From positions 1-47,449 of the IMG/VR virus record IMGVR_UViG_3300049456_000119: a stretch of DNA of 47,449 nucleotides; one strand, given 5' to 3'. The notes beneath the pieces are model-generated. The model was not told the origin of the DNA. It searched no databases and worked only from the letters and a program-made list of their open reading frames with translations. This DNA comes from a virus. Of this stretch, positions 1-47,449 are shown one piece after another (within the stretch, counting starts at the first letter, position 1; each line of letters begins with the position of its first letter). The position numbers and the translations under genes are program-made.

Positions 1-394
1 TCAGGCCCGACCCGCGCAGGTTCGCCTCGCTCAGGTCCGCCCCGCTCAGGTCCGCCCCGTACAGGTTCGCCCCGCTCAGGTCCGCTCCGCGCAGGTTCGC
101 CCTGCTCAGGTTCGCCCTGCTCAGGTCCGCCCCGCGCAGGTCCGCCCTGCTCAGGTCCGCCTCGCTCAGGTTCGCCTCGCTCAGGTCCGCCCCGCTCAGG
201 TTCGCCCTGCTCAGGTTCGCCCTGCTCAGGTTCGCCCTGCTCAGGTCCGCCCTGCTCAGGTCCGCTCCGCGCAGGTTCGCCCTGCTCAGGTCCGCTCCGT
301 ACAGGTTCGCCCTGCTCAGGTCCGCTCCGCGCAGGTTCGCCCCGCCATGTGTGTAAAGAACTTCCCCCGTCCTCTTATGCTTGATTTCGATCAT
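1..394 (-). CDS. Pentapeptide-repeat protein (3' end outside the window)
   Basis: From an ATG at 394 (upstream GAGGG Shine-Dalgarno) the minus strand reads MIEIKHKRTGEVLYTHGG followed by about 20 uninterrupted A(N/D)LxG five-residue repeats up to the window edge. This is the right-handed quadrilateral beta-helix fold; some family members mimic DNA and bind gyrase, but most have no known role. The frame is still open at base 1 and the last visible repeat is slightly degenerate (GSGL in place of GADL). It resembles the N-terminus of the second pentapeptide protein at 28240-29175. The high-GC 15-bp DNA repeat keeps all three minus frames open for long stretches; only this frame gives the pentapeptide pattern and an N-terminal domain. 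Confidence 0.85.
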   Translation of the reverse strand, partial: MIEIKHKRTGEVLYTHGGANLRGADLSRANLYGADLSRANLRGADLSRADLSRANLSRANLSRANLSGADLSEANLSEADLSRADLRGADLSRANLSRANLRGADLSGANLYGADLSGADLSEANLRGSGL

Positions 395-1272: not shown

Positions 1273-1710
1273 TTACCGACCCGAAAACGAGTCATCCGAG
1301 TGCCCGAGCTCGCCAATGTGCGCCGGGTAGAGCTTCCAGTTACCGTGCGAAACCTTAGGCGCGGCGGGCACTTGGCCGTAAATCGTAATCTCCGGAACGT
1401 TGACAGTGACCCCGACTCGCTCCGTGACGCCTTCGCGCGGCAGGGTCGGAATAAACCCACCTTCGAGCGCGGGAATACTCATTGCGTCACTGTACGCAGA
1501 AACAGTACGGGGCATCGCGAACCGTGCTCCGGGGTTATTTTCGTGGCCCGACGCGCTCGCGTGCGTGTCCCCAGAGCTCGCGTGCGTGTCCCCAGAGCTC
1601 GCGTGCGTGTCCCCAGAGCTCGCGTGCGCGTGCGCGTGCGAGTTTACGACGCCGAACGTGGTGCAGAGGGCGATAATAATTGATCCCGCGACGATATTTG
1701 AGGTTTTCAT
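1273..1710 (-). CDS. Secreted His/Ser-repeat protein
   Basis: 145 residues starting at ATG 1710, with AGGAG nine bases upstream. The N-terminus is a clear Sec signal peptide (MKTSN, hydrophobic core IVAGSIIIALCTTFGVV, then NSHAHA). Mature part begins with a His-rich stretch and three perfect HASSGDT repeats, then a region without repeats ending HSDDSFSGR. His/Asp clusters could bind metal, but no family is recognised. Probably an exported accessory (lysogenic conversion) product or envelope-interacting protein. Confidence 0.65.
   Translation of the reverse strand: MKTSNIVAGSIIIALCTTFGVVNSHAHAHASSGDTHASSGDTHASSGDTHASASGHENNPGARFAMPRTVSAYSDAMSIPALEGGFIPTLPREGVTERVGVTVNVPEITIYGQVPAAPKVSHGNWKLYPAHIGELGHSDDSFSGR
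1555..1617. repeat. Three 21-bp tandem repeats inside a secreted-protein gene
   Basis: GCTCGCGTGCGTGTCCCCAG plus A occurs three times head to tail (1555, 1576, 1597) with a partial fourth copy. The repeat is an exact multiple of three and encodes HASSGDT, so copy number can vary without a frameshift. Confidence 0.85.
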
Positions 1711-1752
1711 GGTCGGCTCCTAATTGATTTCGAGATAATTGGTTAATTGCGA

Positions 1753-1911
1753 TTATCGTGCCGAGCGCGCTCGGATGACGCGGCGCACTTCTTCGATACG
1801 TCGAGCTCGGTAGCGCGCCCGCCAGGTGGAGGCGAGCATGGCCAGGTCTGCCGCGATATCGCCCCGTAGCGAGGCGCTGAGCGCCTGCTCGGGCGTGCGT
1901 AGGGCCGTCAC
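1753..1911 (-). CDS. Small basic protein, unknown
   Basis: 52 residues from GTG 1911, which overlaps the TGA of the gene before it (GTGA). Sequence VTALRTPEQALSASLRGD followed by a strongly basic helix (RARYRARRIEEVRRVIRARS). A longer frame upstream exists but is the antisense-like shadow of the overlapping genes. May bind nucleic acid; no family recognised. Confidence 0.5.
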   Translation of the reverse strand: MTALRTPEQALSASLRGDIAADLAMLASTWRARYRARRIEEVRRVIRARSAR

Positions 1912-2075
1912 GCGGCCACCTGGAGGACCGCGCCCGACGCCTGGTGAACTATGGTGCATTGCCATCCGCCGCGAGTGAGGGACGCGGCCAGGGCGCATGC
2001 GTCGGCGCAGAGCATTCCCGTGCGCGTGTAGACGGCGTGGACGCCGCGCGTTGCGGTAACGGTGTAGAGGCTCAT
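1908..2075 (-). CDS. Small hypothetical protein
   Basis: 55 residues from ATG 2075 (ATGA overlap with the upstream gene). Reads MSLYTVTATRGVHAVYTRTG then a Cys-containing amphipathic segment (MLCADACALAASLTRGGW) and a beta-like end (TIVHQASGAVLQVAA). It resembles the small alpha/beta proteins common in phage early operons. Function unknown. Confidence 0.55.
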   Translation of the reverse strand: MSLYTVTATRGVHAVYTRTGMLCADACALAASLTRGGWQCTIVHQASGAVLQVAA

Positions 2076-2257
2076 TTGCCACCCGTCGCGAGGGAACCGC
2101 CGAGGGTTTCACGAATCATGTCTGCGATGCGTAGGGAGCGCGCAGTGGCCAGCGCGCGGTCTGCCGCCATGGTGGCGACGCTCGTCATGGCGACGACGTT
2201 GGCGTGGCTCGTGGGGGCCGTGGTGTGGAGGATGCTGCGGAGAGTGATCGTCTTCAT
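2072..2257 (-). CDS. Small hypothetical protein
   Basis: 61 residues from ATG 2257, first of three overlapping genes (2257 to 1753). Sequence MKTITLRSILHTTAPTSHAN, an Ala/Met-rich middle and the end LGGSLATGGK. Upstream lies AATTAGCTAATTAGG (about 2284-2298), a palindromic relative of the CTAATTAG element. No family recognised. Confidence 0.5.
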   Translation of the reverse strand: MKTITLRSILHTTAPTSHANVVAMTSVATMAADRALATARSLRIADMIRETLGGSLATGGK

Positions 2258-3085
2258 AATAGGGAGTAATGCAGTATCGATGCCAATTAGCTAATTAGGA
2301 TAAGTCATTGATATCTTGGCAATGGTATGGCATCGTCGTCATAGGGGAATAAGAAGACGAAGGATATCGCGATGTTAGGGTGTCATAGGGGTGCAATGAT
2401 TGCGTAGTATGTGTAGGGGGATAAAGGTTGATATATGTATGAATGCAGATTTTTTGACGATGGGGCCCCACCCCGGGCCTCCTTGAAAAGCGACCCTGAG
2501 CCCGCGCGCGTACCGATCGAAAAAATATTTTCAAAAAATTTTCGAGGTAAATAAAGAAATATTTACGGATAAATAAAGAAATATTTATTTCTGGTTGGAC
2601 CCTGAGCCCGCGCGCGTACCGATCGAAAAAATATTTTCAAAAAATTTTCGAGGTAAATAAAGAAATATTTTCGGGTAAATAAAGAAATATTTATTTCTGG
2701 TTGGACCCTGAGCACGCGTGCGCGCGATCGAAAAAATATTTTCAAAAAATTTTCGAGGTAAATAAAGAAATATTTTCGAGGTAAATAAAGAAATATTTAT
2801 TTCTGGTTGACCTTGAGCCCGCGCGCGTACCGATCGAAAAAATATTTTCAAAAAATTTTCGAGGTAAATAAAGAAATATTTTCGGGTAATATTTCTTTAT
2901 TTACCTCGAAGCGTAAATAAATACGCATTTACGCGCGGGCAAAATGCGAACGGTCGAGTACGCTGCCGGCACATCGGGGCACATTTGCGCCTCAAAAGTA
3001 GCTCGTCCGTGTCAATTTAGTTGCGAGCGCGGCGGGGCGTCACTACTAAGCGGACACCGGGCTCTTCGTCCGGTTGGAGGCCCGC
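2258..3085. other. 828-bp gene-free region, candidate origin
   Basis: No credible coding frame. It contains the AATTAGCTAATT palindrome (about 2284-2295), the tandem repeats and inverted repeat listed separately (2492-2910), and an 8-bp inverted repeat GCGTAAAT/ATTTACGC at 2911-2934. The AT-rich repeats stand out strongly from the GC-rich genome, as in many replication origins. The open frames on the minus strand here are products of the repeats. Confidence 0.5.
2492..2910. repeat. Four 106-bp AT-rich tandem repeats ending in a 23-bp inverted repeat
   Basis: Units start at 2492, 2598, 2704 and 2809. Each has a GC-rich head (GACCCTGAGCCCGCGCGCG), a GATCG junction, then AAAAAATATTTTCAAAAAAT and two copies of GGTAAATAAAGAAATATT. 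The last unit is cut short and continues into the reverse complement of its own tail: 2858-2880 and 2888-2910 are perfect 23-base arms with a 7-nt loop. Unit 3 has a variant head. The design (iterated strand-melting AT tracts plus a fixed GC box) fits an origin or partition site; that is inference. Confidence 0.85.
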
Positions 3086-3298
3086 ATGACCTTGCGAATG
3101 TTTGAGATGATCGACACCTGGAACGCCCTCGTCGTAGAGGCCCGCGCCATAGGCGTCCCGCATTACTTCGTAGACCATCTCGCCCACTGCGTCGCCATTG
3201 TGGAGGCGAGTGCGGGCGCGGGTGTGGTGGAGCTCTACGAGGCCGTCACTGCGGCCGTACGCGCGCAGCGCTTCGTCGTCGCGAACTTGCCGGCGTAG
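3086..3298 (+). CDS. Small hypothetical protein
   Basis: 70 residues. ATG 3086 is preferred over the in-frame TTG at 3074 because GGAGG at 3076-3080 lies five bases before it. Helical sequence (MTLRMFEMIDTWNALVVEAR) with no recognised domain. It is the only plus-strand gene in the first 14.8 kb, directly right of the repeat region, and may be expressed early. Confidence 0.55.
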   Translation: MTLRMFEMIDTWNALVVEARAIGVPHYFVDHLAHCVAIVEASAGAGVVELYEAVTAAVRAQRFVVANLPA

Positions 3299-3369
3299 CT
3301 CAGCAGAGCGCCATCAAGAAGATGGCAATCGCGAACGCGACAAGCTCGGGCCCGTGGTCGCTCAAGTAA

Positions 3370-4026
3370 TCAACCATCGAGGGCGACGGGCCACACGAGC
3401 TTGTCGAGCGGATAGCCGTCCGCGAGCACGACGGCGGCGTTCTGGAACAAGACCTTGTTGGCCAGGTTGCGGGGGCGCAGGCCGGGGTTGCCGGTGTCGT
3501 TCAGCCAACCCTCGCCCCGACACGTCACATCGCGACCGGCGTCGCCTGCGGGGCCGGCACACGTCCGGAAATCGAGCTTGGCCACGGCGGCGTCGAAGTG
3601 CGGCGCGCGCCAGCCGGCGCCCGCTGCCCATGCGCACGAGTGCGCGGCGAGCTGCGCGTCGGCCGGCCACTGCGACCAGTTGGCCCAGCGCTTGACGAAC
3701 CACGACTCATTCGAGGCCATGCGCTCTTGCACGAGCTGCACGACCGTCGTCGGGGAGAGGTACAGCGGGCGCGGCGCGCGCTTCGGCCACCATGCGAGCT
3801 TGCCCGCTTTGACGGCCTGCCACTCGGCTTGCACTTCCCCGAGCGACGCGAGTATACCGTCCGAGCGACGCTGCCATGCGATGCCGAGTGCGGCACCGAC
3901 GGGGTCAATCAGATTACCGACCCCGCACGTCACGAGCCCGAGGCAATCCACATACATTTCGTACACGGTGCCTTCGTACGCCGCCGTGAAGTCGGGGAAG
4001 GCGGCGAGGACGTCGGGGTAGCTCAC
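3370..4026 (-). CDS. Endolysin, T4-lysozyme-like muramidase
   Basis: 218 residues. Cleaves the MurNAc-GlcNAc bond of peptidoglycan at the end of infection. The catalytic triad matches T4 lysozyme in spacing: Glu18 (AAYEG), Asp27 (MYVDCLG) and Thr33 (LVTCGVGN) correspond to E11, D20 and T26. The C-terminal NPGLRPRNLANKVLFQNA is typical of GH24-like phage endolysins. There is no signal peptide, so release needs a holin; small membrane proteins and a lipoprotein lie just upstream in the same operon. The protein is longer than T4 lysozyme (164 residues), with extra Trp-rich loops. Confidence 0.85.
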   Translation of the reverse strand: MSYPDVLAAFPDFTAAYEGTVYEMYVDCLGLVTCGVGNLIDPVGAALGIAWQRRSDGILASLGEVQAEWQAVKAGKLAWWPKRAPRPLYLSPTTVVQLVQERMASNESWFVKRWANWSQWPADAQLAAHSCAWAAGAGWRAPHFDAAVAKLDFRTCAGPAGDAGRDVTCRGEGWLNDTGNPGLRPRNLANKVLFQNAAVVLADGYPLDKLVWPVALDG

Positions 4027-22504: not shown

Positions 22505-22857
22505 CCCCCGCTGACGTCGCCGCTCGTCTCGGGTGCTCACGCGCGTACGCCTACGTGGTCGTGCGCTCGCTCCCGCACGTGCGCGTCGGCAGGCTCCTTC
22601 GCGTGACGGAAGAGGTCGTGTGTGCTTACCTAGAGCGATGCGAACGCCTACCCCCTATACCCTTGTCCGCGTCGATGGTTCGCCCTTCTGGTACGTGTAC
22701 TTCCTCGACCGGGCCGGGTCTCGCGTCCGGAAGTCGACGAAGGAGCACTCCAAAGAGCGCGCGCATGCAGTGGCTCGGGAACTCGAGCGACGGTACGGAG
22801 ATCCGACCTACAACGCCGCGAACGCAACGACCCTCTCGGATGCCGCCCGCAGCCTGA
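22486..22857 (+). CDS. Excisionase-like HTH protein
   Basis: From GTG 22486 the frame reads LLTPADVAARLGCSRAYAYV then SLPHVRVGRLLRVTEEVVCA, a winged HTH of the excisionase/MerR type (HTH_17). Excisionases bend att DNA and favour excision. After about 55 residues the frame runs inside the integrase gene and gives low-complexity sequence, so the functional protein may be the first half only, or a -1 shift could join it to the integrase frame. Start is uncertain because no strong ribosome site is visible. Confidence 0.6.
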   Translation: MPVSLLTPADVAARLGCSRAYAYVVVRSLPHVRVGRLLRVTEEVVCAYLERCERLPPIPLSASMVRPSGTCTSSTGPGLASGSRRRSTPKSARMQWLGNSSDGTEIRPTTPRTQRPSRMPPAA

Positions 22858-23666
22858 AGGAGCACCTTGAAAACACCGGACGCTCTTCTGAAACCCGAGC
22901 CTTCTACGGCGTCAAGCTCGGCCATGTGGGCCGCGTTCTCGGAACGGATTGCCGGCTTGCGGACGTCACGGCGCCCGCCGTGGACGGGTACATCCGATTA
23001 CGTCGAGCTGAAGGTGCGGCGCGCTACACGATCGCCAAAGAGCTGACCGCGCTGCGGATGCTCCTGAAGGTCGCGCGTCGCCGCGGGGAGTTCGACCGGG
23101 AAGTCTCCCAGGTCATGCCCGTAGGCTTCGCGACCGGTTATAAGCCGCGCATGCGGCGGTTGACCCGCGGGGACGCGTGGGCCTTGATCGCCATGCTCCC
23201 GGAGCCCTGCGGTCGGTATGCGGCCTTCGTGTGCGCGACGACGGCGCGGGACTCCGCGGTCGGCCGCGCCATCGGTTCAGACCGCTTGGCCACGGGCATC
23301 CGCGTGCGCGATGCGAAGACCCGTGCCGCTGCGCGCGTGGTACCCTTCACCGCCGTGACGGCGGCGTTCGCCGACTTCGCCTTCCTGAACGTCGCTCCGG
23401 ACGCCGCCGTCGCACCCGGGCTCGGGAGCGTGCGCCACGCGTTCGATCGCGCGTGCGCGCGCCTCGGCTTCCCGCACACGAGCCCCAACGACCTCCGGCG
23501 GTCCGTGGCCCACTGGCTACTAGAGGAGAGCGTACCGCGCGACGTGGTCGCGGCGTTCATGGGGCACACGTCGACCAAGATGCTTGACTCCGTCTACGGG
23601 AAGCTCGATCCGACGCAGATCGGCGAAGCTATTGCGCGGGCCGTTTCGATGCGCGCGCCAGAGTGA
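22638..23666 (+). CDS. int: Tyrosine integrase
   Basis: 342 residues from ATG 22638. N-terminal arm-type sequence (FWYVYFLDRAGSRVRKSTKE) and a SAM-like core-binding domain (about 55-150) precede the catalytic domain. Arg box TTARDSAVGRA, Lys in DAKTRAAARVVPF, box II DLRRSVAHWLL, GHTS and nucleophile Tyr in MLDSVYGKL are present. The first residue of H-x-x-R is Asn (PNDLRR), a tolerated but unusual change. The attP-like tRNA segment lies 250 bp downstream. It integrates the phage into the host chromosome, probably at tRNA-Phe. Confidence 0.85.
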   Translation: MRTPTPYTLVRVDGSPFWYVYFLDRAGSRVRKSTKEHSKERAHAVARELERRYGDPTYNAANATTLSDAARSLKEHLENTGRSSETRAFYGVKLGHVGRVLGTDCRLADVTAPAVDGYIRLRRAEGAARYTIAKELTALRMLLKVARRRGEFDREVSQVMPVGFATGYKPRMRRLTRGDAWALIAMLPEPCGRYAAFVCATTARDSAVGRAIGSDRLATGIRVRDAKTRAAARVVPFTAVTAAFADFAFLNVAPDAAVAPGLGSVRHAFDRACARLGFPHTSPNDLRRSVAHWLLEESVPRDVVAAFMGHTSTKMLDSVYGKLDPTQIGEAIARAVSMRAPE

Positions 23667-28166: not shown

Positions 28167-28243
28167 CGTTCCGCCCGCACGTTGAAGTAGAGCGAGATCA
28201 GGATGAGAAGTAACCACGCGCCCCAGAGATAGACGTCGATCAC
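28163..28243 (-). CDS. 26-residue membrane protein
   Basis: GTG 28243 overlaps the pentapeptide stop, and its TGA overlaps the RuvC start. Sequence MIDVYLWGAWLLLILISLYF then NVRAER: one membrane helix with a basic end. Exactly fills the gap between the two genes. Confidence 0.6.
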   Translation of the reverse strand: MIDVYLWGAWLLLILISLYFNVRAER

Positions 28244-29175
28244 GGCGACACCGGACGGGGCAAGTGCCTACCATCGAAGAGCGCAACGAAGGTCGCGACA
28301 AGGGCGCGCTTCGTTTCGGGGGCATCCGCTTGACGGTGTATATCCAGTCCCGCGGCCATGGGGCAATCGGTCCACGAGTGAGATCCCCACGCGGCGATAG
28401 CGCGGGAGGTTGCCTCGGAGGTATCGCAGAGTCCCGCGAGCGGATCGGATTGCCACTGGGCAAGGGTGCGACCGTCGGGGAGATTGGCGTTCTGGAAATC
28501 GGCGCCCTGGAGATTGGCGCCCGTGAGATTGGCGCCACGGAAATCGGCGCCCTGGAGATCGGCGTCCTGGAGATTGGCGCCCTGGAGATTGGCGCCCCGG
28601 AGATTGGCGCCCCGGAGATTGGCGCCACGGAGACTGGCGCCCGTGAGATCGGCGTTCTGGAGACCGGCGCCCCCGAGATCGTCGTTCTGGAGATGGGTGT
28701 ACCGTAGATTGGCGTCCTGGAGATTGGCGCCCGTGAGATTGGCGCCACGGAGATCGGCGTCCTGGAGATCGGCGTTCTGGAGATAGGCGTCCTGGAAATC
28801 GGCGCCCGTGAGATGGGCGCCTCGGAGATCGGCGCCCTGGAGATTGGCGCCACGGAGATGGGTGTCCCGTAGATTGGCGCCACGGAGATCGGCGTCCTGG
28901 AAATTGGCGTCCTGGAAATTGGCTCCCCGGAGACGGGCGCCCGTGAGACGGGCGCCCGTGAGATCGGCGTACCGTAGATCGGCGTCCTGGAGATCGGCGC
29001 CCTGGAGATCGACGCCCTGGAGAGTGGCGCCCTGGAGATGGGCGCCCTGGAGACGGGCGCCCCCGAGATCGGCGCCCCGGAGATTGGCTCCCTGGAGATA
29101 GGCGCCCTGGAGATTGTCCCCGGGGTGCATGAATACGATTTCGTGAGTGAGGCGATGTTTGATGGTTACGGGCAT
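28240..29175 (-). CDS. Pentapeptide-repeat protein with C-terminal domain
   Basis: 311 residues from ATG 29175. N-terminal MPVTIKHRLTHEIVFMHPGD, then about 43 A(D/N)LQ/R-type repeats (residues ~20-230) and a non-repeat C-terminal domain (RTLAQWQSDPLAGLCDTSEA to the end). The repeat part forms a long quadrilateral beta-helix, in some family members a DNA mimic that protects or inhibits gyrase. Controlled by a CTAATTAGTAAG element touching its start codon and cotranscribed with a RuvC-like nuclease, which favours a DNA-related role. Confidence 0.85.
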   Translation of the reverse strand: MPVTIKHRLTHEIVFMHPGDNLQGAYLQGANLRGADLGGARLQGAHLQGATLQGVDLQGADLQDADLRYADLTGARLTGARLRGANFQDANFQDADLRGANLRDTHLRGANLQGADLRGAHLTGADFQDAYLQNADLQDADLRGANLTGANLQDANLRYTHLQNDDLGGAGLQNADLTGASLRGANLRGANLRGANLQGANLQDADLQGADFRGANLTGANLQGADFQNANLPDGRTLAQWQSDPLAGLCDTSEATSRAIAAWGSHSWTDCPMAAGLDIHRQADAPETKRALVATFVALFDGRHLPRPVSP

Positions 29176-33068: not shown

Positions 33069-33181
33069 GGCGACGCCCAAGCCCACACCACGACGCGCCA
33101 GAGGCAACCCAAAGCGGCCAAATAGCCGACGCCTACGAGACTCATGAGCGCGAGCGCTACCAAGGGGGAAGGCGGCTTCAC
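33065..33181 (-). CDS. 38-residue membrane protein
   Basis: GTG 33181 overlaps the TGA of the lipoprotein metzincin. MKPPSPLVALALMSLVGVGY then LAALGCLWRVVVWAWASP, one or two hydrophobic spans. Function unknown. Confidence 0.55.
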   Translation of the reverse strand: MKPPSPLVALALMSLVGVGYLAALGCLWRVVVWAWASP

Positions 33182-33672
33182 GGTGCCCCCGCTTCCACGG
33201 CCCGCACGGCGCGCCATTGCGCAATGTCCGTCGGCGTCACGGTGAGCGAGCCGAGGTCCGAGTAGGGATACATGAGCGTGCCCGGGCCGGTATGCAGTAG
33301 TCCCATCGCGTGCCCCATCTCGTGCGCGATGAGGCGCTGCGCCATCGCGGGGGTTTGCTTCACGAGCGCCGGCTCTACGAGCCACATTTCCGTAAAAACC
33401 GTGTAGCCGGTCATCACCCCGGGCTCGAGAGGGTTCGGGGGAATGCTGTCGACGGGGTGCATGCAAATCATCCCGAGCCGCCGCTGCTCCGGGCAAGGGC
33501 CGTCGGCGAAGGTGATCTTGACCGGCACATTGGCCATCCAATCGGCGGCGGCTGCGCGGGCCGCTGCGAGCGTTGTGACCGAGAAGCCGGGGTCCGGCCG
33601 CGCGACGTAGTCGGCGCCGAAGCAGCCGATCAGGAGCGCGAGCGCGGCGAGGGCGAGAAGGGGGCGGATCAT
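33178..33672 (-). CDS. Lipoprotein metzincin protease
   Basis: 164 residues from ATG 33672. Residues 1-17 MIRPLLALAALALLIGC are a lipoprotein signal with lipobox LIGC (Cys17). Residues 117-127 HEMGHAMGLLH are the full HExxHxxGxxH metzincin motif and TLMY (Met134) is the Met-turn. The protein should be a lipid-anchored zinc endopeptidase facing the periplasm or outside. It shares the motif HE-GHAMGL with the protease at 31846-32358 but is otherwise different. Such a gene is unusual in a phage. Confidence 0.85.
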   Translation of the reverse strand: MIRPLLALAALALLIGCFGADYVARPDPGFSVTTLAAARAAAADWMANVPVKITFADGPCPEQRRLGMICMHPVDSIPPNPLEPGVMTGYTVFTEMWLVEPALVKQTPAMAQRLIAHEMGHAMGLLHTGPGTLMYPYSDLGSLTVTPTDIAQWRAVRAVEAGAP

Positions 33673-33875
33673 CGTCGACCGCCCGGTTGCGCGTCGACCA
33701 GTTCTTGCACACGCGCCGCAAGGCGCGCGCATCGCGCCGATAGTAGGTCGCGAGAAGCGGTAAGTTCCGCGAGCGACGCCGACAGAATGTCCCCGCGCGC
33801 GTCAGCAGCGGCAAGCTTCAAGGTCAGCTCGGCCACGCGGCCTTGCAATACGTCCAATGCCCACGGGGTACTCAT
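33669..33875 (-). CDS. Small coiled-coil protein
   Basis: 68 residues from ATG 33875 (ATGA overlap at both ends). LDVLQGRVAELTLKLAAADA and LLSARCARLAARVQELVDAQ form a long amphipathic helix. No membrane segment, so a spanin is unlikely. Confidence 0.6.
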   Translation of the reverse strand: MSTPWALDVLQGRVAELTLKLAAADARGDILSASLAELTASRDLLSARCARLAARVQELVDAQPGGRR

Positions 33876-34312: not shown

Positions 34313-35827
34313 TCAGGTAATGCCAAGGCCCGGCGTCGCGCGCACGGTCTCCATGGCTGCTTTTAGGTAGGACATGAACTGCAAAAGGTAGAGAAGCGCC
34401 TGCGTCGTCGCATCGACTTGGTCGTCGTGCTTGGCGCGCGGGAAAGATAGAAGCTCGGGCAAATACAACGATGCGACCCACTCGTACCCGGGCATGGCCG
34501 GGTCGGGTAAATAGACGTTCCCCGCCTCGAAAAGACCTGAAGTCGCTGACGCGCGAGAAAACTTTCCCCCCTGCGGATCGACAGCCACGAGGCCCGGCAC
34601 TTCCAAGGTCAGCGTGGCCACCACGCCGGTCCCGTTCGCCTTATCCTCAATTAGCTTCACAATAGCTTGTTTCCAGCGGAGTGCAAGCTCACGGACTTTT
34701 TTTACCGTCATCGGGAAGTCGAAGTGCCCGTGAAGTTGGTCGAGCAAGAAGAACCAAGCACCGACACGCGCCCACGCTTGGCCCGCGACGAAGTCGCTCG
34801 TTGCCTCGTCCTTGAAGGCACAATCCCACGAGTTCACGATCTGATCGAACGCAACCGGGCGCGCGATGATCTCGCTCGGTTCCCACCCGGGCATGATGAC
34901 GTGCCGGCCTTCGCGGACGGTCGACCAGAACCTGAGGGTCTCGCGCTTGAAGACCGCGCCGCCCTCGGGGACGGGGGACTGGTCGTACTGCGCCGAGTAC
35001 GCCATGCCGCCAAGGTCGAGCTTCATCTTGTCGAGCCACGCCTGCGGGAGTCGGTTCGGCTCGAAGAGCTCCCCGACCTTCGTGCGCGGGTCGCTGCCCC
35101 AAGTCGTCACCGTGCGGCGCGCAGGGTCGAAGTTCGCCGGCAGGCAAAGGTGAACGGCGCCGTTGTCGAGAAGAAGCTGAGAGGGGTCGTCGCAATGCAA
35201 CCGCTGCATGATGAGGATGCGGGAGCGCACTTGGTCGGCGCCGAGTCGCCAGCGCGAGCCAAGCGTCGTTCCGATCCACGCGCGCGCCGTCTCGAGACCG
35301 ATCTTCGAAAGGTCGGCCGGCTTGATTGGGTCGTCGATGATTTGGTAGTTCGCGTGCCACCCGGTGACCGCGCCGCCCGGGGTAGTCCCGAGGCGCCAGC
35401 CCCCGCGGTTGTTTTCGATGAGCTCGACCGCCGGCTTCGTGGGGATCTTGAAGTCCTCGCCCCAGCGGGCCAGCCACCACTTCGATTGCAAGACCTCGCG
35501 GAACGCGCGCGCGTCGCGGTGAATGATGTCGTCGCCGTACGCCCCCGTGATGATACTTCGCTCGGGGGACTTCGCCCAAATCCACAACGGGAAGAGCACG
35601 CACGTGAGTGATGACTTGCTACCGGCCGGCGGAATGTTCACGACGAGCTCGCGAATTTCGCCCGTGTAGCAAGCCTGGTAATGCGATGCAATCAAAGGTA
35701 TGTGCCAATTCCATTGCAAAGGAAAAGCGGCATACGCTTGAGGCCAAACCATCCGTATGAAATCGATGAAATTACCGCTTCGAACCGTCTCCCTATCGCA
35801 CGCAATTAGATTCTCACGCAGCGACAT
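34313..35827 (-). CDS. terL: Terminase large subunit
   Basis: 504 residues from ATG 35827. N-terminal ATPase with Walker A variant PPAGSKSS (66-73) and Walker B QIIDDP (162-167); C-terminal RNase H-fold nuclease with Asp335 (NSWDCAFKD), Glu394/Asp395 (LIEDKANG) and KHDDQVDA (467-474). It cuts concatemers and pumps DNA through the portal. The portal is 4 kb away, on the other strand, an unusual split of the packaging genes. Confidence 0.9.
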   Translation of the reverse strand: MSLRENLIACDRETVRSGNFIDFIRMVWPQAYAAFPLQWNWHIPLIASHYQACYTGEIRELVVNIPPAGSKSSLTCVLFPLWIWAKSPERSIITGAYGDDIIHRDARAFREVLQSKWWLARWGEDFKIPTKPAVELIENNRGGWRLGTTPGGAVTGWHANYQIIDDPIKPADLSKIGLETARAWIGTTLGSRWRLGADQVRSRILIMQRLHCDDPSQLLLDNGAVHLCLPANFDPARRTVTTWGSDPRTKVGELFEPNRLPQAWLDKMKLDLGGMAYSAQYDQSPVPEGGAVFKRETLRFWSTVREGRHVIMPGWEPSEIIARPVAFDQIVNSWDCAFKDEATSDFVAGQAWARVGAWFFLLDQLHGHFDFPMTVKKVRELALRWKQAIVKLIEDKANGTGVVATLTLEVPGLVAVDPQGGKFSRASATSGLFEAGNVYLPDPAMPGYEWVASLYLPELLSFPRAKHDDQVDATTQALLYLLQFMSYLKAAMETVRATPGLGIT

Positions 35828-35906: not shown

Positions 35907-36109
35907 GCGCGCCTCGGCGCCGGGGGCAACGGATCGAGCACCAACGGTGCGGTTGTCCGGAAAACTTCGTGAATCTGATAGACCACGAACACGCGCGAGT
36001 CGTACGACATCGACATCTCTTTCGCGCGCGTCACGGCTTGCTGGCGGGTAACCGAAGTCACGAGTCCGCCTTCGCTCATTACGATGTACTCGAGGTCGGG
36101 AGCGATCAT
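35903..36109 (-). CDS. Small hypothetical protein
   Basis: 68 residues (MIAPDLEYIVMSEGGLVTSV). Alpha/beta pattern with RVFVVYQIHEVFRTTAPLVL, similar in type to other small phage proteins. ATGA overlaps on both sides. Confidence 0.6.
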   Translation of the reverse strand: MIAPDLEYIVMSEGGLVTSVTRQQAVTRAKEMSMSYDSRVFVVYQIHEVFRTTAPLVLDPLPPAPRRA

Positions 36110-36798
36110 CGCACCGCCCTCCGTCGCGCGACGTAGTCCGTCGCCTCTTTGGTCAGATCGTCGCGCTTCCCCGTCCAGAACTCTCCGCGGTCTTTCGCCG
36201 CGAGCTTCCGCACGAACGTGCGAAGCGCGAGCATGTCGCGCTTGCGGTCGATTGCATCCTCGGGCGCATCCGGCACGGTCGCGATGGCGGCCGGCAGGCA
36301 GGAGGATATCCGCTTCGTGCGGTCGAACGGTTGCGTGCGGGGGTCGATCGCCATGAAGGTGGCCTGAGCCGCCTGCGCGCGCTTCATTGCGCTCGGGGCG
36401 ATGCCGACCTCGACGGGCTCCGCCTCGCGCCCGTGCTGCGCGTAGAAGGCCGCCATCGCGTCTTGCTGCGCGCGGGGTAAGTCAGCATCCTTCGGTCGCG
36501 AGATGGGCGTGGCGTGGCGGAGAACGAGCTGCATTTCGTGCCGCATCTTGAAGAACGCGAGCGTCGAGAAAGCCCCGCGCTCGGGGTCCCACTCGGCGAT
36601 GGCGGCCAAGAGGCCGAGGCGCGCGGCCTGGAAGATGTCGTCGCGGAGGTTGTCGATCGCGTACTGCGTCCGACCGAGGAAAGCGCTCGCGAAGCGCTGC
36701 ACGAGCGGCTCGTTCTCGGCCGCCATCTTAGCCATGAGGCGCGACTTTTTCACGCGGCTCGTGGCCGTCTTCCAGGCGTCGAAATCGATTCGGTTCAT
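36106..36798 (-). CDS. Sigma-70 region 2-like protein
   Basis: 230 residues. Residues 51-95 (LRDDIFQAARLGLLAAIAEW, DPERGAFSTLAFFKMRHEMQ) match sigma region 2.1-2.4: D-D-x-x-Q-x-x-x-x-G-L, the D-P-E-R-G turn and F-S-T-x-A. Region 4 is not clear; the C-terminal LRTFVRKLAAKDRGEFWTGK may be a degenerate form. Likely a phage sigma factor redirecting host RNA polymerase to phage promoters, perhaps to CTAAACT or CTAATTAGTAAG sites. It could instead be a phage-borne transcription-modulating fragment. Confidence 0.7.
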   Translation of the reverse strand: MNRIDFDAWKTATSRVKKSRLMAKMAAENEPLVQRFASAFLGRTQYAIDNLRDDIFQAARLGLLAAIAEWDPERGAFSTLAFFKMRHEMQLVLRHATPISRPKDADLPRAQQDAMAAFYAQHGREAEPVEVGIAPSAMKRAQAAQATFMAIDPRTQPFDRTKRISSCLPAAIATVPDAPEDAIDRKRDMLALRTFVRKLAAKDRGEFWTGKRDDLTKEATDYVARRRAVR

Positions 36799-39953: not shown

Positions 39954-41969
39954 CTATGCGGCGGCGAGTGCGGCCTTGCGAGCTCTCTCCTCCGCCGCCC
40001 ACTCGGGCGACCACGGGAGTAGCTCGCCATCGGCGTCATACCTCGGCTCGGCGCTTTTCGACCACACGGTCATCACGAGCGGCAGGGTCCGCACGGGTAC
40101 TTTCGAGAGGTAAATGTTCGCGCCTTCGCACATCAAGCGGCCGAGCTCTTTCGCCGCCGCAGGGGCGCGTGCATGCGTGCATTCTGCGATGATCTCGTCA
40201 TGCACGAACGCAACGACACGGCACCCGAAGAGCGGCGAAGTCGGCTCGGCGTAGCACGCGCGCGTAACGCGCCAAAGAGCTTCTTTCGCGCAATCGGCCC
40301 CGAGCGCCTGGAACCGGCGATTGCACAATGCGCTGTAGCGCATTTGGCCGCCCTGGCGCCCCGTGAAGAGGGTCTCTTCATCGCCCTCGCCATCCGCGGT
40401 CGCCATCGCCGCGAGGCGAAAGTGCTCGACCGCCTCGGGCACGCGACGCTTCCACGCCGCATTGTACTGCGCCGCCTCCTGCAAGGTGACGACGACGCCG
40501 TAGTTGTTCTTGGCATACGCTACGAACTTCTTGTCCCCGAGGCCGCCTGGTCGCCCGAAGTTGATGGCCTTCGCGCGCTGACGCATCTCTTTGATCTCGG
40601 GGTCGCCAGCTTTCTTCCGCGCGAGCGCTTCCTCGTACGTGATCCCCATCATCACGGCCGCCATAGCCAAGTGGGCGTCTCGGCCGGCGTTCAGGTCTTC
40701 GGCCAGCTTGCTCCATCCGATCTTTTCGAGGCACCACGCCGCGAAGGTATGGAGCTCCAAGCCCTCGAAGTCGGCCTGAATGAAGACGGTGCCCTCGCGC
40801 GGTCGGAACGCCTCGCGGATGCCGGCGCCGCGACTGATCGCCTGAATGTTCGGCTTCGAACACCGCGTGCGCCCCGTGTCCGCCATGTCGTACCGCGGTT
40901 GTATCGGAACCTCGCACCCCGACCGGAGCATTTTGACGTCGTTGCTCAGTTGCTTCCGAATCGTGAGGAACTGCGAATATCGACCGATGATCGATTCGTC
41001 GGGGAGTCGATCGCACGCGTCGGACCCGAGCGAGACCTTGCCCCCCGGAGTACGCGCGACGGGGATGCCCTCTTCCGCGCACGCCTTCTCCATGGCCGCC
41101 ATCGCGACCTTCGTGTCGGCCGTGCCGTCGGGGCGGATGAGGCCCTCCGCCTGAAGCTCGAACTTGAGCGCTTCGAGCTCTTCGGTCAGATTCTTCTCAA
41201 GCGCATCGACCGCGGGACCATCGGTGTAGAGACCCCAGCACGACGACAGGTGCAGACCGAAAGCGGCCCTCGCCTGGCGGAACTGGTCCTGAAGCACTCC
41301 AGGGCGCTCGCGCGCGATGCGCTCTTGCGATTCGTAGAGGGCGAGCGTCGTCGTCGCGTCCGCGAGCGCATACCGCACGGGCTCGTCGGGGTCGCTGGCA
41401 AGCATCGCATGAACGTCCTTCTCTTCGACGTCTTTCGCCCACTCGGGGAGACCGTGCGAGCGCACGCGCGCCTGGAAGTGTCGCGCGACGCGCGGCCAAT
41501 CGGCGATGTCCGGCTCTTGGTCGAAAGCGCGGTACATGAGGCGCCACCCGTCCTTGGCCAACCGGCGGCCGAAGTGCCGCGCGCAGCAATCGTCGAGCGA
41601 GTACTTGACCGGGGAGAGCTCGCCGTCGCTGCCCATCACGGAGCGGAAGGTCCCCCGGGCGATCTGGAGGAGCTGCTCGCGGAGGAGAGTATCGCTTATT
41701 TCGTCACGATCGTACTTCGCGAAGATGGCGGGCACGAGGTCCGGCCATTGCGCGGCGATCACTCCGAAATCGTACGCCGCGTTGTGACCGACGAGCAGCG
41801 CGTCGCCCGCGAGCCACTCTTCGATGATCGGCTTCGCGGAGTCGCGGTGTCGAATGCCGGGGCCCGCCATGCCGGCGGACATGAATTGCACGCAGACGAT
41901 CGGGGGCGCGAGCAGCCCTGGCGCAATCAAAAAAGTCTCGGTATCGAAGGCTACGACTCGACTACTCAC
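39954..41969 (-). CDS. Family A DNA polymerase
   Basis: 671 residues from GTG 41969. Proofreading 3'-5' exonuclease: Asp9/Glu11 (FDTE), Asn63...Asp67 (HNAAYD), Tyr200-Asp204 (YALAD). Polymerase: motif A IQADFEGLEL (Asp400), motif B RQRAKAINFGRPGG (Arg463, Lys467), motif C VHDE (590-592). In motif B the O-helix residue equal to E. coli Pol I Tyr766 is Gly475, an unusual change; Phe471 matches Phe762. Replicates the phage genome. Confidence 0.9.
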   Translation of the reverse strand: MSSRVVAFDTETFLIAPGLLAPPIVCVQFMSAGMAGPGIRHRDSAKPIIEEWLAGDALLVGHNAAYDFGVIAAQWPDLVPAIFAKYDRDEISDTLLREQLLQIARGTFRSVMGSDGELSPVKYSLDDCCARHFGRRLAKDGWRLMYRAFDQEPDIADWPRVARHFQARVRSHGLPEWAKDVEEKDVHAMLASDPDEPVRYALADATTTLALYESQERIARERPGVLQDQFRQARAAFGLHLSSCWGLYTDGPAVDALEKNLTEELEALKFELQAEGLIRPDGTADTKVAMAAMEKACAEEGIPVARTPGGKVSLGSDACDRLPDESIIGRYSQFLTIRKQLSNDVKMLRSGCEVPIQPRYDMADTGRTRCSKPNIQAISRGAGIREAFRPREGTVFIQADFEGLELHTFAAWCLEKIGWSKLAEDLNAGRDAHLAMAAVMMGITYEEALARKKAGDPEIKEMRQRAKAINFGRPGGLGDKKFVAYAKNNYGVVVTLQEAAQYNAAWKRRVPEAVEHFRLAAMATADGEGDEETLFTGRQGGQMRYSALCNRRFQALGADCAKEALWRVTRACYAEPTSPLFGCRVVAFVHDEIIAECTHARAPAAAKELGRLMCEGANIYLSKVPVRTLPLVMTVWSKSAEPRYDADGELLPWSPEWAAEERARKAALAAA

Positions 41970-43551: not shown

Positions 43552-43585
43552 CTCATCAATTAGCCCTTGTCCAGCTAATTAGGGT
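43552..43585 (-). promoter_or_regulatory. CTAATTAG-class element before the ssDNA-binding operon
   Basis: TAATTAGCTGGACAAGGGCT then AATTGATGAG on the minus strand: arms AATTAGC/GCTAATT around GGACA. The 3' part (TTGATGAG) diverges from the TTAGTAAG of the other copies. Overlaps the last bases of the helicase gene. Confidence 0.55.
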
Positions 43586-45357
43586 CATGCCGCCCACCTC
43601 TTTCCGCGACGCCCCGTCTCCGCTGGCCAGTCGATATCCGCGAGCTGCAACTTTTGCGTGAATCCGAGAAGCGCCGATTTCACGGAAGAAGAATTGAGCG
43701 CGCGAGGCATGGCCTCGAGGTGTTCTCTACACCCGACAAGTACGTCCACTGTCACCTCGTCCTCCGGTTGCCCCTGACGGTGCGTGCGCCCGATGAGCTG
43801 CTCGAAGAACTCCGAATCCCCGCGCGGGGCCGTAATGAGGTTGTCGCACCACTTGAACTGCAAATCGCGGCCGGTAAGGTTGGCGTGCGATGCGATGACC
43901 GGGCCCGTGACCTCCGGGTCCAGATCGAAGGGTACCTTGCTGTCGACCTTGCCAGAAAGGCCCCCGGCCCCGAAGAACGGCAAGCCCGTGCGGCGCGAGA
44001 GCTCGCGACCGAAGAGAATGTGCTCGACCCAACAGATCCCCTTCGGGTGCGTCTTGAGCCACTCCGCGCAGACGTTCAGCGCCGTGTCATCATGCCAGAC
44101 CTCTTTCGAGTTCACGTCGAAGGTCGGCTTGATCTTGCGCCATTCCCCGAGCAAGTCGTACTCGTCTTCGATCTCCCCCCGATCGACGGCGTTCGTGACC
44201 TGAAGCTCGCTATCGATGCCGGCGCGCGACGAGCTAGGGGCCTTGAGCGTCTCGCGGACGAGCTGCGCCCACTGCCGGCGCTTGTCGAGCCATTCTGTCG
44301 GCGCGGGCGGGTCCCACGTGTAATGCATCCCGAGGCTGAGCTGCCGCGCGCACGCCCAAATCTGCACGGCCTCCGTGAGCGCGAAGCCGTCGGGGCGACA
44401 CGACGTGTCGCGCAAGATCTGAAAGTTCGCTTCGGTCGCGGCATTCGGTTGGTACTCGATTGCGTTGATTTGAAGCGACCCGCCATAGTCCTGCACCGCG
44501 TCCGAGATGATGATTCCCCCCGTACCGAGCATGCGCTTCTGGAAGATGACGCGCGCGCGATGGCGATCGTCATCGAACATTTCGCTGTCGTTCGTCGCAC
44601 CAGGCATGAGCTCGAGAAGCTGCCCCGGGGGCCGCATGGAGAACGGGTTGATGTTCTCGTCGAGCGCTTCCGACCACTCCATGAGTGTCGCGGCGTACAG
44701 CGGCGTCGGGGACGCCTCGCGATGCGACCACTCGAGAAGGTGTGCGAAATCCTTGACGCTCTTCTTCATCGGCGTGCCCGCGAGGGGGACGAACGTGAGC
44801 GCCTCGTCCCGCGCGCGCTTGCCTTCGATGTACCGCCGGAACCGACGGGTCACGGCGGCGCGGAGGTTCTTCAGCTTGTGCGCTTCGTCGGCGAGAATCA
44901 GGTCGGGTTGCTCGCGGTCCAGGTACGCGGCGCCCGACACGCGCGAGATGAAGTCGTACGACTTGATCCTCAGGTCCTTACGCACTTGCCAGTACTTCGC
45001 CATCTCGTGCCAGGCGTGCTCGGTCTTCACGAGCAGGCCGCCGGGAACGACGAGCAGCGGGCGCTTCGCCTCGAGTACGCGCCCCGCGAGAAAACTAATC
45101 AAGGTCTTCCCGGCCCCGACGCGGAGGGGGAAGAAGCCTTTTCCGTGCGTTCCCAGGTCGTAGAGCGCTCGCGCCTGCACGTCCTTCAAGCGCAGCGGGT
45201 TGCCGCGCCCGTCGACCTCGACGCCCGGGTTCTTCAGCAACCGGGTCATCTCGTCGGTGAGGTTGTCGGGATATGCCTCTTCCCCGCGCACGGGAAGACC
45301 CCGCACGCGAAGGAAGTCGGCGCTCGCGACGACGGGCGGTTTGGAAAAACCGGCCAT
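43585..45357 (-). CDS. SNF2-type helicase
   Basis: 590 residues from ATG 45357. Motif I RVGAGKT (79-85), motif II LADEAH (155-160), LAGTPMKK (motif III) and QLIGRTHRQGQ near the C-terminus (motif VI) define an SF2/SNF2 translocase. The motif I Gly-Ala-Gly-Lys-Thr is full. It probably acts in replication, repair or branch migration with the adjacent RecB-like nuclease. The frame upstream of 45357 overlaps another gene and is not used. Confidence 0.85.
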   Translation of the reverse strand: MAGFSKPPVVASADFLRVRGLPVRGEEAYPDNLTDEMTRLLKNPGVEVDGRGNPLRLKDVQARALYDLGTHGKGFFPLRVGAGKTLISFLAGRVLEAKRPLLVVPGGLLVKTEHAWHEMAKYWQVRKDLRIKSYDFISRVSGAAYLDREQPDLILADEAHKLKNLRAAVTRRFRRYIEGKRARDEALTFVPLAGTPMKKSVKDFAHLLEWSHREASPTPLYAATLMEWSEALDENINPFSMRPPGQLLELMPGATNDSEMFDDDRHRARVIFQKRMLGTGGIIISDAVQDYGGSLQINAIEYQPNAATEANFQILRDTSCRPDGFALTEAVQIWACARQLSLGMHYTWDPPAPTEWLDKRRQWAQLVRETLKAPSSSRAGIDSELQVTNAVDRGEIEDEYDLLGEWRKIKPTFDVNSKEVWHDDTALNVCAEWLKTHPKGICWVEHILFGRELSRRTGLPFFGAGGLSGKVDSKVPFDLDPEVTGPVIASHANLTGRDLQFKWCDNLITAPRGDSEFFEQLIGRTHRQGQPEDEVTVDVLVGCREHLEAMPRALNSSSVKSALLGFTQKLQLADIDWPAETGRRGKRWAA

Positions 45358-45533
45358 CAGTCGTCCTCGCCCTCGGCATTGCAGAAGACAGCCACGGTCC
45401 GCCCGACTCCCGAAAGGGCGCCGGCAACAGGTCGCCACGCCCCGTGACCCGCTTGCGCTTCATCGTCCCATACTTGCACCACGTCCGTGCCGGAGAAGTG
45501 TGCGAGCAAGTCGCGGAGTTCTTGAACGGTCAT
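45357..45533 (-). CDS. Small hypothetical protein
   Basis: 58 residues from ATG 45533: MTVQELRDLLAHFSGTDVVQ then VWDDEAQAGHGAWRPVAGAL. This pattern (TVQELRDLL....D..V.V.D) is common in phage early proteins of unknown role. TGATG overlap with the helicase. Confidence 0.65.
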   Translation of the reverse strand: MTVQELRDLLAHFSGTDVVQVWDDEAQAGHGAWRPVAGALSGVGRTVAVFCNAEGEDD

Positions 45534-45900: not shown

Positions 45901-46076
45901 GACGGCCCCGTCTCGAGGACGACGTCCGCCGCGCCGTCCCACTTCATCATCTCGGCCGCGCGCGCGAGTGCCTGCTCATACGTGCCCCAGAAGCGGTATA
46001 CGCGATTCTCACGCACCGCAGAGCCAAGCACGGGCACGAGGAAGGTATACGTGATGACTTGCTGTCGAGCGTTCAT
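45897..46076 (-). CDS. Small hypothetical protein
   Basis: 59 residues from ATG 46076 (ATGA overlap). MNARQQVITYTFLVPVLGSA then WGTYEQALARAAEMMKWDGA. Alpha/beta. No family recognised. Confidence 0.55.
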   Translation of the reverse strand: MNARQQVITYTFLVPVLGSAVRENRVYRFWGTYEQALARAAEMMKWDGAADVVLETGPS

Positions 46077-47449
46077 CGAACGGCCTCGACGACCGTGTCG
46101 CTGATCGACCGGAGATGCGAGAGGCACAACACGGCCTCGGGAGACATCGGGGAGATGACGACGAGCGCCGTCGGCTTCTCGTGTTGCACGATCGCCTCGA
46201 ACATCGACAGAAGCATTCCGTTACCCTTGCCGTACTCGTAGAGGCGGTAGTCCTGCGGGCCGATGGCGACCTTCGCCTTGGCCACGAGATTATCGAAGTT
46301 CGGGCGAGGATCGCACCCGATAGAGACGCTCGGGATACAACCGACGTAGAGCGTGTCGATGCGATGCTTCGCGGGGGCGGGCGGCGGTGCGACTTCCATT
46401 CGGGTCGGGTTCGTGTTCACGGTGCCGGTCAACTCCGCGGAGGGTGACCCTCCGGGCGCGGGAATTTGTTCCGCGGGCGCGACCGAAACGGCGGCCGGCG
46501 GCACGGTCGGTTGCGCCAACTCGGCCGCGCGCGAGATTTGCACCGACGGCGGCGGCACCGAGGCCACCTTGCGCGGGCGTCCGGGTTTGCGCTTCGGGGG
46601 ATTGACCTGACCGGGGGCGACCTCGGTCGCCATGAACTCCGCCGAGAACGTCGTGGGGCCGCTGGGGGTCACCACGGTGACCGGGGCGGGCCCCAGCGCG
46701 GGCGCGCCGGCCGAGAGGGCCTCGAGAGCGCGAAGGCGCGACGGGCCGCCTGCGGGCACGTACGGCGGGGGAGATGCGGGCGCGACGGCGGGCGCCTCGG
46801 GGATGTCGATACGGGTCGGCTCGTACCCATTGTTACCGACGGGGGCGGGGGTCGCCGCGACGGGCGCGGCCGTCGTATTCGCCGGGCCATTGAATGCGTT
46901 CTGAGCTTCGAGTCTTGCGAGCAAGGGATTCATCGGTTTCTTTCCTGCGGTTGAGGGGTCACGAAAAAACGAAATGTTGCAACGGGCTTGGTGAGGGCAC
47001 GGGCGGCCGTAGTCCCAACACGCATCGGGGTTCGGTTCGATCACGTCTAGGATGTACTTGTGTTTGCCGGCGGGATCGTCGGGCGCGTTGCTCGCGGCCG
47101 TCTGCATGTCGTCGGCGAAGGTCTCAAGGACCTCGAACATCTTGCGCGCGTGCCCGCGGGTCATCGTGAAAGTCACCGGCTCGCACTTGATGGGCTTCGC
47201 TTTGCGAATGTACAGCCACGTGCCTTTGAGCGTGGCGTCGTCGGGAAGCGGCGCCGCGTTCTCCATTCGCCGGAACATTCGCTCCGCGTAGAGCACGGCT
47301 TGTGGGTCGTGCTGCAACTCTTCTGGCGTCTTCTTCCACTTGAAGTGCGAAGTTGTCTTGTAATCCCGCAAGTCTCCCGGCTTTTCGATGTCGATCTTCC
47401 CGCGCCACGTGTGGCGCCCGCGAAAAGTAAATTCACCCTCGATTGAGGC
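46073..47449 (-). CDS. RecB-like (PD-D/ExK) nuclease with AT-hook linker, N-terminus missing
   Basis: 458 visible residues; the 5' end lies beyond the window, since the frame is open at 47449 with no start. GKIDIEKPGDLRDYKTT holds the nuclease signature (Asp of GKID and D-Y-K). Cysteines CWDYGRPCPHQARC follow, as in Cas4/AddB-type Fe-S or zinc nucleases. Then a Pro/Ala-rich linker with an AT-hook (PKRKPGRPRK) and a separate C-terminal domain (RIDTLYVGCIPSVSIGCDPR to PTALVVISPMSPEAVLCLSH) that I do not recognise. Probably processes DNA ends with the helicase. Confidence 0.75.
   Translation of the reverse strand, partial: ASIEGEFTFRGRHTWRGKIDIEKPGDLRDYKTTSHFKWKKTPEELQHDPQAVLYAERMFRRMENAAPLPDDATLKGTWLYIRKAKPIKCEPVTFTMTRGHARKMFEVLETFADDMQTAASNAPDDPAGKHKYILDVIEPNPDACWDYGRPCPHQARCNISFFRDPSTAGKKPMNPLLARLEAQNAFNGPANTTAAPVAATPAPVGNNGYEPTRIDIPEAPAVAPASPPPYVPAGGPSRLRALEALSAGAPALGPAPVTVVTPSGPTTFSAEFMATEVAPGQVNPPKRKPGRPRKVASVPPPSVQISRAAELAQPTVPPAAVSVAPAEQIPAPGGSPSAELTGTVNTNPTRMEVAPPPAPAKHRIDTLYVGCIPSVSIGCDPRPNFDNLVAKAKVAIGPQDYRLYEYGKGNGMLLSMFEAIVQHEKPTALVVISPMSPEAVLCLSHLRSISDTVVEAVR

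Follow-up and report, generated by a model that had tools for sequence, protein, structure and literature searches.

The window, that is the whole 47,449-base stretch analysed here, is an IMG/VR virus record of a contractile-tailed phage, with genes for a major head protein, head protease, tail sheath, tape measure, baseplate, portal and terminase. A noncoding region, which we regard as a candidate control or origin region, extends from position 2258 to 3085, between the start of a leftward gene (2072-2257) and a small rightward ORF (3086-3298), and harbours a tandem repeat array at 2492-2910. No other noncoding stretch of the tailed-phage contig is as rich in AT or as dense in repeats as this array, whose GC content of 0.32-0.33 is the minimum of the window (0.63 overall). 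The surrounding segment 2295-3197 is the longest stretch of the window without an ORF of at least 110 amino acids, so that the first-pass annotation correctly described an AT-rich array within the largest gene-free block of a GC-rich genome. It had also placed the array beside a strand switch, which proved to be one small plus-strand ORF (3086-3298) among flanking main genes that all lie on the minus strand.

To the left, a chain of small minus-strand genes leads toward the early replication operon (PolA, helicase, exonuclease). To the right, the small plus-strand ORF is followed by an endolysin-like gene (3370-4026, minus strand), which serves as a syntenic marker on one side of the array. 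Its name is tentative, being based on position and conserved neighbours; the gene has relatives in the related phages G002, G003 and G011 and gives no match in Pfam or PHROGs.

The array consists of three full units of 106 bp and a truncated fourth, where four near-identical units had been reported. Unit starts are found at 2492, 2598, 2704 and 2809 (spacings of 106, 106 and 105 bp), and Tandem Repeats Finder (TRF) assigns 3.8 copies of period 106 with 94% matches and a score of 724 over 2492-2889. Unit 1 (2492-2597, plus strand, 106 bp) contains a GC box, a AAAAAATATTTT element and two sub-repeats of the GTAAATAAAGAAATATTT type. Unit 2 (2598-2703, plus) also measures 106 bp, unit 3 (2704-2808, plus) measures 105 bp and shows compensating 1-bp indels, and unit 4 (2809-2887, plus) is cut off after its first sub-repeat. 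Every unit joins the GC box GACCCTGAGCCCGCGCGCG to the AT element CGATCGAAAAAATATTTTCAAAAAATTTTCGAGG, as described earlier, although the box is not fixed, having diverged in unit 3. The last unit indeed folds back on itself: it ends in a perfect 23-bp inverted repeat (2858-2910) with arms at 2858-2880 and 2888-2910 and a loop of 7 nt. Folded as DNA, this terminal hairpin has a z-score of -7.5, and none of 200 shuffled sequences folds equally well. An Rfam search for an RNA element yielded no match.

Within the units, the sub-repeat (R)TAAATAAAGAAATATTT, 18 to 21 bp long, occurs in seven direct copies between 2547 and 2884 on the plus strand (starting at 2547, 2569, 2653, 2675, 2758, 2781 and 2864), and one further copy is inverted at approximately 2888-2904. 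The spacings of the direct copies (22/84/22/83/23/83) correspond to positions of 0, 2.10, 10.10, 12.19, 20.10, 22.29 and 30.19 helical turns. The sub-repeats thus hold one helical phase within about 0.3 turn across 30 turns, which is partly a by-product of the tandem duplication, so that the sites are not fully independent. Since the period of 106 bp is not a multiple of three, the array is noncoding, a coding origin is ruled out, and the ORFs that overlap it are mechanical. The units differ by substitutions as well as compensating 1-bp indels and hence do not represent a simple assembly duplication, while their similarity of about 94% indicates that the amplification is recent. A chance origin is excluded: composition-preserving block shuffles produced no 8-mer cluster comparable to the array.

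We searched the window and the relatives compared for clustered 8-mers, excluding those with coding-type spacing and using block shuffles as control. In G011, AATATCCG occurs 14 times (AATATCC repeats) between the lysin and a beta clamp, which is the same slot as that of the window array; this slot also holds GC/AT tandem repeats of 55 bp. Other clusters adjoin a replication helicase-primase gene, namely GTGATCCA (ten copies) in G012/G016, CTTTCGCC (nine copies) in G015/G017 and AGTTCCCG (six copies) in G014. In G015 and the G014 homologue the helicase-primase position is filled by an AAA_25 helicase protein. All these clusters, including that of the window, lie beside the early replication module, whereas none was obtained in the block shuffles. 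The signal is not perfectly exclusive to this location, as further clusters occur elsewhere in G003 (pentapeptide-type coding repeats), G014 (at 45.5 kb) and G015 (at 17 kb); in G002 and G003 the slot itself holds no iteron cluster by the 8-mer search. The cluster sequences of the relatives are unrelated to one another and to the window array, and similarity between the array and the G011 slot is no better than for shuffles.

A similar arrangement is seen in more distant phages. A scan with a PrimPol alignment yielded 80 loci, of which ten with a cluster were counted after near-duplicates had been removed by hand and partial PrimPol matches left out. In eight of these ten the cluster lies 0 to 1 kb 3' of a PrimPol (PF09250)-VapE (PF05272) gene (Poisson-binomial P = 3.9e-8 against random placement). 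The exceptions are L183 and G011; in the latter, 4.7 kb separate the cluster from PrimPol (5.2 kb when measured to the cluster midpoint). The PrimPol loci L169, L171, L176, L184, L185 and L188 carry no cluster. Two of three named phages that were checked fit the arrangement: Marinobacter phage PS3 has seven copies of GGGGTGAC in the 265-bp gap after its 'DNA primase', and Pseudomonas phage vB_Pae_U5 likewise has a cluster 3' of PrimPol. In Bacteroides phage BT638P5, the third, the arrangement is absent.

The early replication module of the window is located on the minus strand and comprises a family A DNA polymerase (39954-41969), a SNF2/ResIII-like helicase (43585-45438) and a PD-(D/E)XK exonuclease-like gene (46073-47371). 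If the genome were circular, the module would join the left end of the window, but the contig shows no terminal repeat that would indicate circularity. G011 shows this junction without interruption, from helicase and exonuclease through other genes and the beta clamp to the repeat-rich noncoding DNA and the lysin, and G002 has the same order. No PrimPol or Rep gene is found in the window. In G002, G003 and G011 a PrimPol gene starts upstream of the exonuclease counterpart and diverges from it on the opposite strand, as judged by PF09250 together with PF05272 in G002, PF09250 in a G003 fragment and homology in G011. In the window, 78 bp separate the exonuclease start from the contig end. By synteny with these three relatives the contig is probably truncated, and the initiator gene presumably lies beyond its right end, being absent from the window because the contig apparently ends first. 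The window also contains no DnaA box (TTWTNCACA). Such boxes are optional in the class of iteron plasmids helped by DnaA, and their absence makes a phage initiator likely rather than DnaA.

Taken together, the relatives' clusters and the PrimPol-VapE loci, along with a similar unit in G002 described below, suggest that the array is an iteron-type replication origin of a PrimPol-type tailed phage, or else the control part of such an origin to which the initiator binds. We put the probability of this reading at roughly 60%. The first-pass annotation, which had proposed a candidate origin, is thereby supported in part; against it stand the lack of an initiator gene on the contig, the separation of PrimPol and slot in G011, which exceeds that at SaPI origins, the empty slot of G002 and G003 in the 8-mer search, and a silent GC skew. 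The skew had been suggested as a check on the start of replication and gives no replichore signal: once gene orientation is allowed for, there is no sign change at the array (same-orientation gene blocks on either side give 0.051/0.009 in the window, 0.046/0.040 in G011 and -0.057/-0.042 in G002).

Under the origin reading, the phage's own initiator, most likely a PrimPol-VapE primase-helicase encoded just past the right end of the contig, would bind the repeated sites cooperatively. Sub-repeat pairs 22 bp apart, in units 105 to 106 bp (about ten helical turns) apart, would place these sites on one face of the DNA. The AAAAAATATTTT/AAAAAATTTT tracts would melt after initiator binding, whereupon the helicase-primase would be loaded and prime replication by the phage family A polymerase. 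The hairpin at the end of the array may keep transcription out of the origin or aid melting. The composite unit of GC box and AT element would have been amplified about fourfold.

Several known systems resemble this arrangement. The satellite phage P4 requires long direct repeats (ori/crr, approximately 120 bp) in cis for replication by a primase-helicase initiator, with two repeat copies located apart from ori. Long direct repeats and a putative primase-helicase initiator would be shared with the window, whereas the initiator domains and the repeat sequence differ and the window has about four copies in tandem. Iteron plasmid origins (RK2, F, P1, R6K; PMC4980987) likewise combine AT-rich melting tracts with helically phased repeats of about 20 bp, and Rep cooperativity at plasmid iterons is lost when sites are offset by half a turn (PMC4980987). 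In contrast to these, the window array lacks DnaA boxes, pairs its sites in 106-bp units, carries its AT tracts inside each unit instead of in one adjacent block, and would depend on another class of initiator. According to the summary in PMC7581432 of Ubeda et al. (2007), the Rep helicases of SaPIs recognise iterons located immediately downstream of the gene that encodes them. The likeness consists of noncoding clusters of short repeats and a primase-helicase (PrimPol-VapE) encoded by the window's relatives, with the cluster directly 3' of that gene in the distant ones. In the lineage of the window, however, as seen in G011, the cluster lies several kb from the initiator gene and adjoins the lysin. 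The window repeats, moreover, are not just short iterons but make up a composite unit of 106 bp that contains two sub-repeats.

The main rival is that the array is a control region of the early operon, in which the repeats would act on that operon and on the small leftward genes as operators or phage-sigma promoters while replication starts elsewhere. The array region directly precedes the leftward gene series (starts at 2257, 2075, 1710 onward), which in a circular genome would run toward the exonuclease, helicase and polymerase, and a sigma-70-like factor is encoded at 36106-36798 (minus strand). Yet no promoter-like site was found in 1700-3500 against 1.2 expected (sigma-70 consensus only), no AT-rich sub-repeat cluster precedes other operons in the window, and this reading leaves unexplained why distant phages have clusters immediately 3' of PrimPol. 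On balance we consider this reading unlikely but a live competitor, given that the contig carries no initiator gene and GC skew offers the origin no support. Control regions of early genes and replication origins often overlap, and both functions may share the region here.

A functionless array, produced when AT-rich noncoding DNA underwent tandem duplication of a selfish or neutral kind, would fit the recent amplification of copies about 94% alike and the uniqueness of the exact repeat to this contig. An exact search of IMG/VR with a 26-nt core and with two sub-repeats in tandem gave no match, nor did a distant blastn search against INPHARED phages or a lysin-based scan of viral contigs. Beyond a weak similarity in G002, nothing comparable was found in IMG/VR or INPHARED. 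In G002, however, which shares about 50-65% protein identity with the window phage, the AT-rich DNA directly behind the lysin can be aligned with one window unit. The alignment spans 104 columns, running from an AT element through the GC box to a further AT element, and the G002 unit has the same position and orientation with respect to the lysin as the array. For the 42-column core of this alignment, 7 of 5000 dinucleotide shuffles attain the observed score, and every other one of 300 natural AT-rich stretches from the relatives scores lower. The similarity is weak but significant, suggestive rather than overwhelming, and speaks for a single conserved unit that underwent amplification in the window phage. 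With repeat clusters recurring at the locus in relatives as well, we regard a functionless array as very improbable.

Equally slight is the prospect that the array is the attP site of a tyrosine integrase, in which case the repeats would serve as arm-type sites and the inverted repeat would form the core. An inverted repeat flanked by paired repeats can look like this, and a phage integrase is encoded at 22533-23666 (plus strand); it lies about 20 kb from the array, though, inside the tail genes as in G002, no tRNA was found in the window, and clusters are equally strong in relatives without a detected homologous integrase (G011, G014, G015, G016). That distance speaks against the recombination site which the first-pass annotation had offered as an alternative, and its other suggestion, a partition site, fares no better. 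Recognition of the array by a phage protein, either as a partition (parS-like) site or as a packaging (pac) site, would fit repeats with inverted copies, as in centromere-like binding sites, but is the least probable reading, since the scanned subset of ORFs has no match to ParA/ParB-like families and the large terminase gene (34313-35827) is far from the array, pac sites usually lying in or near terminase genes.

Returning to the origin reading, a broader and more tentative proposal is that this family of contractile-tailed phages might maintain its origin in a single noncoding stretch next to the replication module while swapping the iteron sequence wholly between lineages. The window origin would then be a tandem-amplified form of a conserved composite unit (GC box, melting element and paired sites), each unit acting as a mini-origin. 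We think this possible rather than probable. Such fast turnover of iterons beside a conserved replication module would provide a natural set for studying the co-evolution of initiator and origin. The array may moreover indicate where origins lie in a phage group without a close cultured member in the collections searched (a terminase-based host search in genome contigs yielded only relatives at 37% identity or less). As a rule for finding origins we offer clustered 8-mers with noncoding spacing near a PrimPol gene.

Some minor observations concern the remainder of the window and its relatives. The G011 slot contains, beside the AATATCC sites, a second and GC-rich set of direct repeats at L148:13929-14154 (GCGTCGGTGTGCACACGCGGG, GGGGTGTGTAAGGACGTACGC). 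The DNA polymerase III beta-clamp-like protein beside this repeat-rich noncoding region (L148:11955-13031, minus strand) has no homologue in the window or the other relatives compared. The integrase at 22533-23666 occupies an odd location within the tail/baseplate cluster, and its counterpart at the same place in G002 shows 66% identity. The sigma-70 region 2 protein at 36106-36798 has conserved counterparts in G002, G003 and G005 and may let the phage control promoters of its own. A perfect 21-bp tandem repeat of 3.5 copies (1555-1628) falls within the small ORF 1273-1710 (minus) and encodes HASSGDT repeats. A minus-strand gene at 33178-33732 shows a weak match to matrixin-type metallopeptidases. 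Genes of the pentapeptide-repeat type, with a DNA period of 15 bp, are present at 1-394 (minus; cut by the left end of the contig) and 28240-29175 (minus), and similar coding repeats occur in several relatives.
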